Shown piece by piece: positions 7,877 through 46,261 of a stretch of 64,000 nt of DNA. The notes under the pieces were generated by a model. It saw only the letters and a program-made list of their open reading frames with translations. It did no database searches and was not told the DNA's origin. A program made the translations under genes and the position numbers. The stretch spans positions 814,001 to 878,000 of the forward strand of contig NZ_JAHFVK010000002.1 in assembly GCF_018599195.1 (NCBI RefSeq), given 5' to 3'. Positions within the stretch are counted from its first letter, which is position 1, and the number at the start of each line of letters is the position of its first letter. The stretch is from Croceibacterium selenioxidans (GTDB lineage Bacteria > Pseudomonadota > Alphaproteobacteria > Sphingomonadales > Sphingomonadaceae).

Positions 7877-8626
7877 ATGAAGGTCCTCGTGCCCGTGAAG
7901 CGGGTGATCGATTACAATGTCCGCCCGCGGGTGAAAGCGGATGGCAGCGGAGTCGACCTCGCCAACGTCAAGATGAGCATGAACCCGTTCGACGAGATCG
8001 CCGTCGAAGAGGCGATCCGCCTCAAGGAAAAGGGCCATGCGGAAGAGATCATCGCGGTCTCTATCGGCCCGGCCAAGGCGCAGGAAACCCTGCGCACCGC
8101 GCTCGCCATGGGGGCCGACCGGGCAATCCTGGTCGAGACCGACGATGCCGTAGAGCCGCTGGCGGTCGCGAAGATCCTCAAGGCCATTGTCGACGAGGAA
8201 CAGCCGGGCCTGGTCGTGATGGGCAAGCAAGCCATCGACGACGACAGCAACCAGACCGGCCAGATGCTCGCCGCGCTCACGGGCAGGCCGCAAGGCACCT
8301 TCGCCAGCAAGGTGGAGATCGAAGGCGAGAAGGTCACCGTGGTTCGCGAAGTCGACGGCGGGCTTGAGACGGTCTCGCTCAGCCTGCCCGCCATCGTCAC
8401 CACCGACCTGCGCCTCAACGAGCCGCGCTACGCTTCGCTGCCGAACATCATGAAGGCCAAGAAGAAGCCGCTCGACGTGAAGCCCGCGGCGGACTTCGGG
8501 GTGGACCTCACGCCCCGGCTCAAGGTGCTCAAGGTCTCCGAGCCGCCGGTGCGCCAGGCAGGCGTCCAAGTGGGCTCGGTCGACGAGTTGGTGGCTAAGC
8601 TCAAGGTATTGGGATTCGTAGCATGA
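7877..8626 (+). CDS. etfB: Electron transfer flavoprotein beta subunit
   Basis: The ATG at 7877 gives the canonical start [12 protein letters not shown] and sits 6 bases after GGAGG; earlier in-frame starts (7859, 7871) lack spacing from that site. The 249-residue product has the family signatures [16 protein letters not shown], the AMP-binding segment [15 protein letters not shown] and [16 protein letters not shown]. EtfB pairs with EtfA to carry electrons from acyl-CoA and other dehydrogenases to the ETF-quinone oxidoreductase. Its stop overlaps the etfA start by 4 bp. Confidence 0.95.
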
Positions 8627-41603: not shown

Positions 41604-41635
41604 GAAAAAGAAGGGCCGCCCCTCACGGAGCGGCC
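41604..41635 (-). terminator. Terminator of the glycosyltransferase/phosphoesterase transcript
   Basis: On the minus strand, arms GGCCGC and GCGGCC (10-base loop) are followed by CTTCTTTTTC. It separates the PlcP-Agt-like pair from trcR. It lies only 15 bases before the trcR start, so it could also act as a leader structure for that gene. Confidence 0.65.
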
Positions 41636-41691: not shown

Positions 41692-42729
41692 TCAGGCGGC
41701 ACGCAGCTCGTACAGCGCAGGTTGCGGACTTTCGGGCGTCAGACCGGCGAGGAACTGGTCGGTGCTCGCCTCCCACGTGAAGCTGCGGCCGTGCGTCCGG
41801 CAATGCTCGCGATTCCGCTGCAGGGCACCGGCAATCGCCTGTTCAAGCGATTCGGCCATGCATCCGCTCGCTGCCGTCAGCACGTCGAGCGGACCGGGAA
41901 CGGGATAGGCGGCGACCGGGGTTCCGGAGGCCAGCGCTTCGATCATCACCAGGCCAAAGGTGTCCGTGCGACTCGGAAAGACGAACACGTCGGCTCCCGC
42001 ATAACAGGCCGCCAGAGCGCGACCGCTCTGGCGGCCGACAAAGATCGTGTCGGGAAACTGGACCTGCAACCTCGCGAGGGCGGGACCGTCGCCGACCACG
42101 ACTTTCGAGCCGGGATGGCGGGTAGAGAGGAAGGCCTCGACGTTCTTTTCAACCGCGACCCTGCCGACATAGAGCTGGACCGGCCGCGGCAACTGCAGGA
42201 ACAAGTCGGGCGGGGCCACGTCCTGACCGAATTGCTCGAGATCGACCCCGCGACCCCAGGGGCGCAGCCGGGTCAGGCCGTGGGCTGCGAGCTGCTCGCG
42301 CAAGGTCGCCGTTGCGGCCATTATCCCGCTGGACGGCGCATGAAAGTGCCGGATGTAGGGCCAGAACATCGCCGCCGGCAGGTGGGAGCGGCGAGCGAGG
42401 TATTCGGGAAACTGGGTATGATAGGCGGTCGTGAACTGCCGCCCTTGCGCCAAACACCAACGCCGGGCTGCCCAGCCGAGCGGACCTTCGGTGGAGATGT
42501 GGATCGCCTCCGGACAAAAGGCAGCGAGGCGCTCACCCACCGCCTGCGATCCAGCAAGCGCGAGGCGTATTTCAGGATAAGTGGGGCAGGGCACCGAGCG
42601 AAACTGACACGGCGCGATCACCTCCACCTCGTGCCCCCGCCGAGAAAGCTCGACCGTAAGGGCGTGCAAGGTGCGCACGACGCCGTTGACCTGCGGGTCC
42701 CAGGCATCGGTTACGATGGCGATGCGCAT
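41692..42729 (-). CDS. GT4-family glycosyltransferase, probable diacylglycerol glycosyltransferase (Agt-like)
   Basis: A 345-residue GT-B glycosyltransferase. N-terminal MRIAIVTDAWDPQVNGVVRTLHAL, the NDP-sugar domain with FPSRTDTFGLVMIEALASGTPVAAYPVPGP near residues 255-285. The sequence style and its coupling to a PlcP-like phosphoesterase (TGATG overlap) suggest Agt, which adds sugar to diacylglycerol during phosphate starvation. The alternative is a mannosyltransferase of the MgtA type; acceptor specificity cannot be read from sequence. Confidence 0.75.
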   Translation of the reverse strand: MRIAIVTDAWDPQVNGVVRTLHALTVELSRRGHEVEVIAPCQFRSVPCPTYPEIRLALAGSQAVGERLAAFCPEAIHISTEGPLGWAARRWCLAQGRQFTTAYHTQFPEYLARRSHLPAAMFWPYIRHFHAPSSGIMAATATLREQLAAHGLTRLRPWGRGVDLEQFGQDVAPPDLFLQLPRPVQLYVGRVAVEKNVEAFLSTRHPGSKVVVGDGPALARLQVQFPDTIFVGRQSGRALAACYAGADVFVFPSRTDTFGLVMIEALASGTPVAAYPVPGPLDVLTAASGCMAESLEQAIAGALQRNREHCRTHGRSFTWEASTDQFLAGLTPESPQPALYELRAA

Positions 42730-43634
42730 CAGGCCGCTCGCGCCATGGCCTCGCCGGAAACCGCGAGCGCGGCCAGCGCCTCGCGACGGGCAATTTCCTC
42801 CGGCCAGTGGAGGATTTCCATCCGACCGTCAAAATGCTCGACCAGCGCGGTGCAGCCTTCGACCCAGTCGCCATCGTTGTAGTACTCGACGCCATCGAGT
42901 TCGCGCATCTCCGCGGTGTGGATGTGCCCGCAGACCACCCCATCAACCTTGCGGGCAGCGGCGGCCCGGGCGACCACTTCTTCGTAACGATAGATGAACT
43001 CGACCGCGTTCTTGACCTTGTGTTTGGCCATCTTGCTGAGCGACCAGTACGGCATTCCGAATTTCCTCCGGACCAGGTTGACCCAATGACTGAGGCCCAT
43101 CAGCAGTTCGTAGAGGGCGTCACCCACGACAGCGAGCCAGCGGTGCGCCAGCATCACACCATCGAATTCGTCGCCGTGCAGCACCAGCAGGCGCCGGCCA
43201 TCGGCGGTCTCGTGCACAGCGGCGCGGCGGATCTCGACCCCGCCGAAGTTGAGACCGGAAAACTGGCGGAACATCTCGTCGTGATTGCCCGGGATGTAGA
43301 CAATCCGTGTTCCGCGCCGTGCGCGCTTGAGAATGCGCCAGACGATGTCGTTGTGCGAGGCTGGCCAGTAGAACTTCTTCTTGAGCCGCCAGCCGTCGAC
43401 GATATCGCCGACCAGGTACATCGTCTCGCTGTCGGTTGAATCGAGGAAGTCGATCAGCAGGTCGGCATTGCAGCCTTTGGTCCCGAGGTGGACATCGCTG
43501 ATCCAGATCGTGCGATAGCGTCGCCGGCCCTCGGCCGAACGCTCGGGCACGACCGGTTCGTGGCTGTCGAAATGCGGAAAGGCGGTGAGGACTCCGCTAT
43601 TTCCGACCGCCCCTTGGAAGTAGCTCGCCAACAT
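42729..43634 (-). CDS. Metallophosphoesterase, probable phospholipase C-type PlcP
   Basis: A 301-residue calcineurin-like phosphoesterase with the metal motifs SDVHLG (Asp47, His49), GDIVDG (Asp77), GNHDE (Asn117, His118), LHGDEFD and GHIH. Such proteins are often annotated UDP-2,3-diacylglucosamine diphosphatase; the adjacent glycosyltransferase points instead to PlcP, which releases diacylglycerol from phospholipids in phosphate-limited marine bacteria and rhizobia. The start is ATG 43634; a TTG at 43661 is possible. A PHO-box-like sequence lies about 95 bp upstream. Confidence 0.75.
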   Translation of the reverse strand: MLASYFQGAVGNSGVLTAFPHFDSHEPVVPERSAEGRRRYRTIWISDVHLGTKGCNADLLIDFLDSTDSETMYLVGDIVDGWRLKKKFYWPASHNDIVWRILKRARRGTRIVYIPGNHDEMFRQFSGLNFGGVEIRRAAVHETADGRRLLVLHGDEFDGVMLAHRWLAVVGDALYELLMGLSHWVNLVRRKFGMPYWSLSKMAKHKVKNAVEFIYRYEEVVARAAAARKVDGVVCGHIHTAEMRELDGVEYYNDGDWVEGCTALVEHFDGRMEILHWPEEIARREALAALAVSGEAMARAA

Positions 43635-43728
43635 CGGCCACAGACCCTTGATAGCCTCCAATGGCTACGAGTCTATGGATGAGGAATATGACGCCAGAAT
43701 CGCAGTTCCGGGTCTGTTTCAAGACTTT

Positions 43729-43746
43729 ATGACAGTCCTGGGTCAG
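43729..43746 (-). promoter_or_regulatory. Candidate PHO box upstream of the PlcP-like gene
   Basis: On the minus strand the sequence is CTGACCC-AGGA-CTGTCAT. The second half is a perfect match to the CTGTCAT repeat and the first matches 4 of 7, with the correct 11-bp repeat spacing. It overlaps the stop codon of the GST gene. No clear -10 follows. It would make the phosphoesterase/glycosyltransferase pair a PhoB target. Confidence 0.5.
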
Positions 43747-44357: not shown

Positions 44358-45245
44358 TCATCCCTCCCAAGGCGAAGGCATGTTGTAAGGGACGGTTACG
44401 AATACCGCCTCGACCCCTGCTATCTTGCCATCGACGATCTTGAACATTTCCAGCAGCGCGAAGCTGTGGGGGAAGTGGAACACCGACTTGGTCTTCGTCA
44501 CCCCATCGGTCCAGGTCACGTCGACCACCTTGCCGCAGTGATCGATGAAGCCCGCGGCAACTACGATGCCCTTCTCCTCGTCGACCAGCGGAAAGCGCCG
44601 GCCCCGCAGGCGGTCGTCGTAGATGTACTGCCCGAGGCGGAACTGCTCGGCGCAGCCCATCGCCGCGATCGGATAGCCTTCGATGTTCGGGTTGTTAGTC
44701 GTTTGCAACCCATTCTCGACCCGGTCGCAATCGTCCGTGAATTCGGTGAACAGCGTCCCGTCATTGAGCTGCAACGTGTCGAAATAGCCGTCGGCGACCG
44801 AGATCATGCGCGCCCGTTCGCGTCGCTGACCGTCCGGTACGTCCGCTAGCATCAGCGGGCGAGGCGAAACATAAGTCTCGATGCTGGGGAACGGACCGAA
44901 CTCCATCGAGCGGCATACGATCGTCTCGACCTCGGCGATCAGGCCCGCGACGATGCCGAGCCGCAGCCCCATGATGGCCGGGTGCCCATGTTCCTCGACC
45001 AGGCCGAACCAGCTGACCTGGCCCGTTTGCGGATCCGCGGCCTTAAGATCGTAAGTGCGGCGCCGGGCGCTGATCGTGTTCCACAGCCCATCACCAATTG
45101 CGAGCTGGACATTGTTCTCCGTGAACACGACTTTGTCGGCCCAAGCCAGGCGTGAGGGATCCTGCGCCTCCAGCGCATCGAGATAGGCCTCGGCGTGAGC
45201 ATAGAGAGCTTCGCGGGTCGTCGGTTCGGATGGCCTTGAATTCAT
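44358..45245 (-). CDS. NTF2-like (SnoaL/DUF8021-type) protein, function unknown
   Basis: A 295-residue soluble protein, read as two NTF2-like cone domains in tandem: one around EALYAHAEAYLDALEAQDPSRLAWADKVVFTENN (about 15-50) and a second around RMISVADGYFDTLQLNDGTLFTEFTDDCDRVENG (about 145-185). NTF2 cups bind or isomerise hydrophobic small molecules. The ATG overlaps the stop of the quinone oxidoreductase gene (TGATG). No activity can be named. Confidence 0.75.
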   Translation of the reverse strand: MNSRPSEPTTREALYAHAEAYLDALEAQDPSRLAWADKVVFTENNVQLAIGDGLWNTISARRRTYDLKAADPQTGQVSWFGLVEEHGHPAIMGLRLGIVAGLIAEVETIVCRSMEFGPFPSIETYVSPRPLMLADVPDGQRRERARMISVADGYFDTLQLNDGTLFTEFTDDCDRVENGLQTTNNPNIEGYPIAAMGCAEQFRLGQYIYDDRLRGRRFPLVDEEKGIVVAAGFIDHCGKVVDVTWTDGVTKTKSVFHFPHSFALLEMFKIVDGKIAGVEAVFVTVPYNMPSPWEG

Positions 45246-46261
45246 CACGCGTGAGTCTCTCCTGATACTTCGAGCACGATCTTACCGACGTGCTCGCCCG
45301 CTTCCATCCGGGCATGGGCCGCCGCCGCCTCGATCAGCGGAAACACAGCGTCCAGTGCCGGTCGCAGCTTGCCTTCTTCCACCAGCGGCCACACTTCCCG
45401 GGCGATCTCGTCCGCGAGCAGCCCCTTGAAGGCATCGGAACGTCCCCGGAGGGTTGAGCCGGTCACCGTGTGCCGGCGGACCATGAGCTTGGCCATGTTG
45501 ATCGTCGCCTCAGCCCCACCGAGAACTGCAATCGTCACCAACCGCCCCGCTTCGACCAGGCAGTCGAGGTTCCGCTGGGTGTAGCTTCCGGCGACCATGT
45601 CGAGCACGAGATCGACGCCCCGGCCCTCGGTAATGGCCTTGACGTCATCCACGAAATCACGGGTGCGGTAGTCAATTGCGTGGTCGGCCCCTAGCGTGAG
45701 AGCCGCGGCGCATTTGGCTTCGGTGCCGCAGGTGACGATCACCGTGAGATCGAACAGCTTGCCAAGCTTGATCGCCATCGAACCTATGCCGCTGGTGCCC
45801 CCGTGGACCAACAGGGTCTCGCCCGGGGTAGCCCACCCGCGCTCGAACACGTTGTGCCAGACGGTGAAGAGCGTCTCCGGCAAAGCCGCCGCTTCGGCGA
45901 GCGACAGGCCTTCCGGCACGGGCAGACAGTGCTCCATCCTGGCGACACAGAATTCCGCATAACCCCCGCCAGTTACGAGCGCGCAGACTCTGGTCCCGAG
46001 CAGATCTTCCGCCCCATGTCCGGCTGCCACAACGGTGCCGGAAATCTCGAGGCCCGGGATGTCGGATGCGCCGGGAGGGGGCGGATAGCGGCCCATGCGC
46101 TGGAGCACGTCGGGTCGGTTGACCCCGGCATAAGCGACCTCGATCAGGACTTGCCCCGGCCCCGGCTCCGGCAGACCGCGCCGCTCAGGCACCAGCACTT
46201 CGGGACCACCCGGGGTAGCGATCGTTACCGCAGTCATCGTATCAGTCTGCACCGCGGCCAT
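45245..46261 (-). CDS. NAD(P)H-quinone oxidoreductase, zinc-free MDR (PIG3-like)
   Basis: A 338-residue medium-chain dehydrogenase/reductase. Catalytic-domain motif VAYAGVNRPDVLQRMGRYPPPPG and the nucleotide-binding motif LVHGGTSGIGSMAIKLGK are typical of the PIG3-like quinone oxidoreductase group, which lacks structural zinc. The ATG at 46261 follows a G-rich site; ATG 46237 is also possible. It begins the coupled oxidoreductase-NTF2-GST chain. It probably acts on quinones or enones. Confidence 0.88.
   Translation of the reverse strand: MAAVQTDTMTAVTIATPGGPEVLVPERRGLPEPGPGQVLIEVAYAGVNRPDVLQRMGRYPPPPGASDIPGLEISGTVVAAGHGAEDLLGTRVCALVTGGGYAEFCVARMEHCLPVPEGLSLAEAAALPETLFTVWHNVFERGWATPGETLLVHGGTSGIGSMAIKLGKLFDLTVIVTCGTEAKCAAALTLGADHAIDYRTRDFVDDVKAITEGRGVDLVLDMVAGSYTQRNLDCLVEAGRLVTIAVLGGAEATINMAKLMVRRHTVTGSTLRGRSDAFKGLLADEIAREVWPLVEEGKLRPALDAVFPLIEAAAAHARMEAGEHVGKIVLEVSGETHA

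Follow-up and report, generated by a model that had tools for sequence, protein, structure and literature searches.

A probable PhoB-controlled plcP-agt operon in Croceibacterium selenioxidans, predicted to turn phospholipids into sugar lipids under phosphate scarcity

In a 64,000-nucleotide stretch of Croceibacterium selenioxidans DNA (contig NZ_JAHFVK010000002.1, positions 814,001 to 878,000; hereafter the window), two overlapping genes on the reverse strand encode a calcineurin-like phosphoesterase and a GT4 glycosyltransferase (GT). The genes and the signals that delimit them, numbered from the first letter of the window, are the following:

42729..43634 (-): plcP, encoding a calcineurin-like phosphoesterase of 301 aa, a predicted phospholipase C
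41692..42729 (-): agt, encoding a GT4 glycosyltransferase of 345 aa, predicted to transfer sugar from UDP-sugars to diacylglycerol
42727..42731 (-): TGATG, in which the stop of plcP overlaps the start of agt and couples the two genes
41604..41635 (-): intrinsic terminator, a GC-rich 9-pair hairpin and T-run, between agt and a TrcR-family gene

A first, sequence-only reading of this DNA had described a phosphoesterase with full metal motifs, coupled by TGATG to a GT4 gene and followed by a terminator, and this layout is indeed present. The last base of the plcP stop codon, TGA, is the A of the agt ATG (42731-42727), and the pair is followed by a hairpin (stem 41635-41614, fold z -2.84) with its T-run. 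The metal motifs DxH, GDxxD, GNHDE, H, and GHIH are complete and invariant across 14 aligned rows. The open reading frame of the phosphoesterase covers 42729-43661 (-), being open as far as a TTG at 43661; since an ATG occupies the place of 43634 in five of six aligned relatives, the start is likely to be ATG 43634, which gives a protein of 301 aa. The upstream neighbour of plcP, a glutathione-transferase-like (GST-like) gene, is also on the (-) strand. A 296-aa open reading frame at 44358-45248 (-) matches nothing in Pfam or NCBIfam at 1e-3, and in three related loci (L005-L007), plcP is directly preceded, as judged by eye, by the end of a gene resembling it.

Public records label homologues of the phosphoesterase “UDP-2,3-diacylglucosamine diphosphatase”, and so the protein might be read as an LpxH-like UDP-2,3-diacylglucosamine hydrolase acting in lipid A synthesis, with the GT as an unrelated neighbour. 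The protein does match two NCBIfam LpxH models, at 35.7 and 30.8 bits, but these scores are far below the respective cut-offs of 134 and 190.35 bits (the latter being that of TIGR01854). Its alignment was expected to favour PlcP over LpxH, as it does: the identity is 51% both to Sinorhizobium meliloti PlcP (259 residues aligned) and to Pseudomonas aeruginosa PlcP (248 residues aligned), and only 22% to Escherichia coli LpxH. Clustering with LpxH had been named beforehand as a refutation; in a tree of 32 chosen rows (with L057 omitted, its PlcP reading frame having run over), the phosphoesterase falls instead with the characterised PlcPs, and a branch with a support of 99/95 separates the four LpxH rows from every PlcP row. 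A further branch, with a support of 100/99, lies beyond the Bacteroides LpxH-like row; because long branches meet among the outgroups, only the split between LpxH and PlcP is used here. A PDB sequence search with PlcP gave no match at E 0.01.

The content of the genome, which is 99.98% complete, bears on the same question: searches for LpxC, LpxH, and LpxI found no match at E 0.001, while control searches for LpxH, LpxI, and LpxC gave matches in 3, 1, and 4 of 14 named genomes, respectively (the LpxH model being less sensitive when run against the genome than in the protein scan, as even the window PlcP was not listed). With none of the three found, an LpxH would have no pathway to serve, and such a role makes little sense. 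Together with the strict pairing of PlcP with Agt (see below), this renders the LpxH explanation hardly credible. By its sequence, then, the first protein is a PlcP, not an LpxH, and a predicted phospholipase C, and the warning of the sequence-only reading that an LpxH-like annotation would mislead was borne out, given that the homologues carry this label in a genome without the lipid A genes tested. As regards the organism itself (G000), the lack of matches to LpxC, LpxH, and LpxI also means that its envelope is probably free of lipid A.

The two named PlcP anchors were drawn from a plasmid collection. In the S. meliloti record (L060), plcP, whose product has the full motif set, lies near an acyl-homoserine-lactone synthase gene and a LuxR-type regulator gene, which we take to be the place of SMc00171 beside sinI/sinR; unlike the window, this locus has no glycosyltransferase annotated beside plcP. 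In the P. aeruginosa segment (L061), the phosphoesterase is coupled to a glycosyltransferase and adjoins cyaB, which is the neighbour of PA3219-PA3218. The latter names are those given to the P. aeruginosa plcP-agt1 pair in the work describing it (PMC8528852), where a Pho box is reported upstream; the order and overlap of the genes are as in the window, and the two proteins are 51% and 50% identical to those encoded there. The L061 record is that of the P. aeruginosa plasmid pHOU1-1, in which plcP and agt1 occupy an apparently chromosomal segment.

The second protein of the window had been proposed to be Agt, the glycosyltransferase that acts on the diacylglycerol released by PlcP, and several lines of evidence agree with this. 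Over 330 residues, the window GT shares 50% identity with P. aeruginosa Agt1; with the product of the gene next to plcR in L070, taken here to be Agt2 (PA0842), it shares 29%. Residues that GTcp, the SAR11 enzyme, requires have been published (PMC8231724), and a comparison by published residue numbers and motifs, not by alignment, finds eleven of these key residues at equal numbers in the window GT (G16, G82, G85, H104, R190, K195, D256, T257, F258, G259, and E264) along with both UDP-sugar motifs, GRVAxEKN and FPSxTDTFG. From their context, R160 and W319 of the window GT stand for Arg163 and Trp320 of GTcp, and Thr162 is replaced by Gly. In P. aeruginosa Agt1 itself, Thr162-Arg163 is replaced by Arg-Lys and Phe258 by Tyr, so functional enzymes differ at positions 162, 163, and 258. 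In a tree of 35 chosen rows (L057 and the L037 GT, which ran off its locus, being omitted), Agt1 and the window GT fall in one group of 31 rows, apart from Agt2 and three paralogues from the genome of the window, with a support of 91/89, a value that is not starred in a tree with long outgroup branches. The genome has no second close copy of the GT, the next match being 31% identical, and a PDB sequence search returned other GT4 proteins only. GlcN-PG synthase, which was the best NCBIfam match of the GT, was set aside, its score of 70.3 bits being far below the cut-off of 480. The sequence, the key residues, and the gene order thus support the GT being Agt-like and a predicted diacylglycerol glycosyltransferase.

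Another possibility is that the GT glycosylates ceramide rather than diacylglycerol, as do Sgt1 and Sgt2 of Caulobacter, and that PlcP serves a separate purpose. Such a substrate would suit a genome in which no lipid A genes were found among those tested, given the Sphingomonas species described as having glycosphingolipids that replace LPS (PMC6445935). The same source describes Sgt1 and Sgt2 (CCNA_00792/00793), the products of two neighbouring genes, as PhoB-regulated GT4 lipid glycosyltransferases that have ceramide as a substrate and their best outside relatives in the Sphingomonadaceae (PMC6445935); their likeness to the window GT is one of description. However, the window GT shares its clade, and 50% identity, with the diacylglycerol enzyme Agt1, has the TDTFG signature of GTcp, and is coupled to PlcP. 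Moreover, in a Caulobacter species (L145), the orthologue of the window GT lies beside plcP and is the only GT there that the window GT matches, a comparison in which Sgt1 and Sgt2 are known by description only. We therefore consider ceramide as the substrate of this GT to be very improbable and retain diacylglycerol as the predicted one.

The association between the two genes extends well beyond the window. Of 59 relatives, 33 have PlcP; among 289 genomes of the class, PlcP was found in 103 (E 1e-10) and the GT in 114 (E 1e-60), with every PlcP-positive genome also having the GT, 11 genomes having the GT alone, and 175 having neither. Given the 11 genomes with Agt and no PlcP match, dependence of Agt on PlcP is not obligatory. 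A GT gene lies downstream on the shared strand in 55 of the 58 best-scoring PlcP loci (the window counted); of the exceptions, L034 lacks one because its contig ends there, and the genomes of L033 and L036 have the GT elsewhere. Conversely, PlcP lies upstream in 71 of the best 80 named Agt loci. The other nine Agt-like loci (L129, L137, L141, L159, L160, L093, L131, L154, and L156), five of which belong by name to the Caulobacteraceae, have no plcP upstream, and such loci and genomes imply another source of diacylglycerol. In the single contig (C1) of one relative, G012, PlcP occurs in pieces at both ends, perhaps as an assembly artefact. A different partner for a PlcP-like enzyme is seen on a Pannonibacter plasmid (L169, 2872-4913), where a phosphoesterase 30% identical to that of the window is coupled to an annotated ceramide glucosyltransferase gene.

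The control of the pair could be based on elements upstream of plcP, which are the following:

43729..43746 (-): candidate PHO box of the sequence-only reading, CTGACCC-AGGA-CTGTCAT on the coding strand
43688..43727 (-): 11-bp-phased half-sites AAGTCTT, CAGACCC, CTGCGAT, and GCGTCAT, the last at the place of the relatives' CTGT(A/C)ACA-(A/T)T core, of which it is a weak copy
43672..43677 (-): -10-like CATAGA at a conserved (C/T)AT element 10 bp past the core, its role as a -10 being putative

The site at 43746-43729, which overlaps the stop codon of the GST-like gene, matches CTGTCAT-N4-CTGTCAT at 11 of 14 positions and lies 95 bp before ATG 43634. Across both strands of the 64 kb, only one other site scores at least 11; this is rarer than chance for one named promoter, although the candidate was chosen after the fact. 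Its half-site CTGTCAT (43735-43729) is kept in four of six aligned relatives (as CCGTCAC twice, GTGTCAC, and GAGTCAT) and not in L005 or L006; the upstream partner of this half-site is seen, among the aligned relatives, only in L002 and L003 (CTGACTC).

Half-site spacing was tested over periods of 8-16 bp. In 32 Sphingomonadales loci, the mean coding-strand score at the 11-bp period was 9.88, as against 8.23 (sd 0.14) in first-order Markov resamples, and a score of 11 was reached in nine loci at this period and in zero to four at the others. In 40 named loci, the 11-bp period was less marked, with five loci at period 11 and five also at period 13. Motif discovery was performed on 66 promoters from outside the genus of the window, using 25 random starts and one PHO-seeded start and leaving out of the training L112 (where plcP runs off the contig edge) and the near-identical L002, L003, and L083. 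The best solutions, reached from six of the 25 random starts and from the seeded start, were shifts of CTGT(A/C)ACA-(A/T)T followed by the CAT element, and the next-best, from five more random starts, were a PHO box, in which CTGTCAC is followed by another GTCA at a distance of 11 bp. Weaker half-sites recur upstream of the core at 11-bp steps in the promoters of the relatives. The matrix scored at least 6 in 66 of 70 promoters and at least 13 in 47, and the cores of the held-out genus members L004-L006 scored 16.8-18.3. The window core, GCGTCAT (43694-43688), has only 7.9 bits, a score that 21 sites, this core among them, reach or exceed when both strands of the 64 kb are counted. The proposed PHO box therefore exists as it was described, with its CTGTCAT half kept in most of the aligned relatives, but the evidence supports placing the best conserved box some 40 bp further downstream, at 43727-43688, in a copy that is weak in the window.

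An important question is then whether this element has to do with PhoB. The genome encodes a PhoB (341.8 bits against a cut-off of 296.2), the gene for which lies within a 12-kb pst-pho locus, where phoB and pstB were assigned by family tests, and phoR, a porin gene, pstS, pstC, pstA, and phoU were read from their translations. The plcP matrix, run along the gene strand of this locus, finds four sites of at least 8 bits, all of which lie at most 100 bp upstream of a gene: phoR (8.5), the porin gene (12.4), pstS (8.1), and phoB (10.0). These four sites fall within the 664 positions upstream of the eight genes, for which 0.10 would be expected from the density in the window and 0.30 from that in the locus. 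Speaking against such a link, the opposite strand of the locus has seven sites, one of which is inside the promoter stretch of the porin gene. This last, at 8446 (+) of L079, is the strongest plcP-matrix site in the locus (15.0 bits) and is perhaps a second, divergent PhoB site.

Because the matrix derived from plcP promoters marks those of the pst and pho genes, control of plcP-agt by PhoB through a main box in the downstream position is supported as a prediction, the site in the window itself being weak. This weakness invites a further explanation, in which the plcP-agt operon is genuine but under little or no control by phosphate in this lineage, with the PHO-like sites as remnants. Indeed, the window core is degraded (GCGTCAT, 7.9 bits) in comparison with the strong copies in the genus members L004-L006. 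However, its score is near those of pstS (8.1) and phoR (8.5) in the same genome, and the other phased half-sites and the CTGTCAT half-site are still present. Loss of phosphate control is thus unlikely, with a small chance of being right, and we keep to predicted control by PhoB.

Elsewhere, PlcP is reported to yield diacylglycerol under phosphate stress and Agt to make monoglucosyl- and/or glucuronosyl-diacylglycerol, as described for Agrobacterium tumefaciens, SAR11, P. aeruginosa, and Methylosinus (PMC3972451, PMC4796936, PMC8231724, PMC8528852, PMC9239053). In P. aeruginosa, the glucuronosyl lipid is ascribed to a second enzyme, Agt2 (PMC8528852), to which the window GT is 29% identical. 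Erythrobacter sp. NAP1 and SAR11 HTCC7211 are described as having agt downstream of plcP (context type 2 in PMC4796936), as in the window, and phosphorus-starved cells of NAP1 as containing MGDG, GADG, and DGTS; the same source predicts Pho boxes in plcP clusters in general (PMC4796936). NAP1, which is likened here to the window by description and not by sequence, differs in making the betaine lipid DGTS, whereas a search for BtaA in the genome of the window found no match (the control giving a match in one of 14 named genomes), so that diacylglycerol has no known betaine-lipid outlet here. Of 26 marine strains, which include one member of the Erythrobacteraceae, most are reported to have plcP (PMC11165706). 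Since the named relatives of the window GT include, among the matches listed, Altererythrobacter and Erythrobacter loci, the pair in the window is a further member of the described system; literature on a plcP-agt operon in Altererythrobacter-like genera was not found among the matches listed.

The locus is thus read, with a probability of roughly 0.87, as a PhoB-controlled plcP-agt operon that would convert phospholipids into sugar lipids during phosphate shortage. At low phosphate, PhoB would bind the half-site array upstream and turn on both genes; PlcP would then cleave membrane phospholipids into diacylglycerol and a phospho-alcohol, and Agt would use UDP-sugars to attach glucose and/or glucuronic acid to the diacylglycerol, yielding phosphorus-free glycolipids. 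The basis of this reading lies in family membership, key residues, gene order, and a promoter element common to the pst and pho genes, and it is from these that we infer the substrates, the sugars, and the induction. A bolder proposal, which we regard as improbable, is that, in an envelope without lipid A, PhoB-induced glucuronosyl and glucosyl lipids, perhaps made on ceramide too, might remodel both the inner membrane and a sphingolipid-based outer leaflet; if this were true, the operon would supply the surface charge that is carried elsewhere by lipid A.

This pathway has been described before, also for a related marine bacterium, and the window offers an ordinary, commonly mislabelled example of it. 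Automatic annotation, which makes the first protein a lipid A enzyme, is contradicted by the content of the genome, in which no lipid A genes were found among those tested, and the gene context gives the right function where the annotation misleads. The analysis also provides a promoter signature for phosphate control in the Sphingomonadales that may be put to the test.
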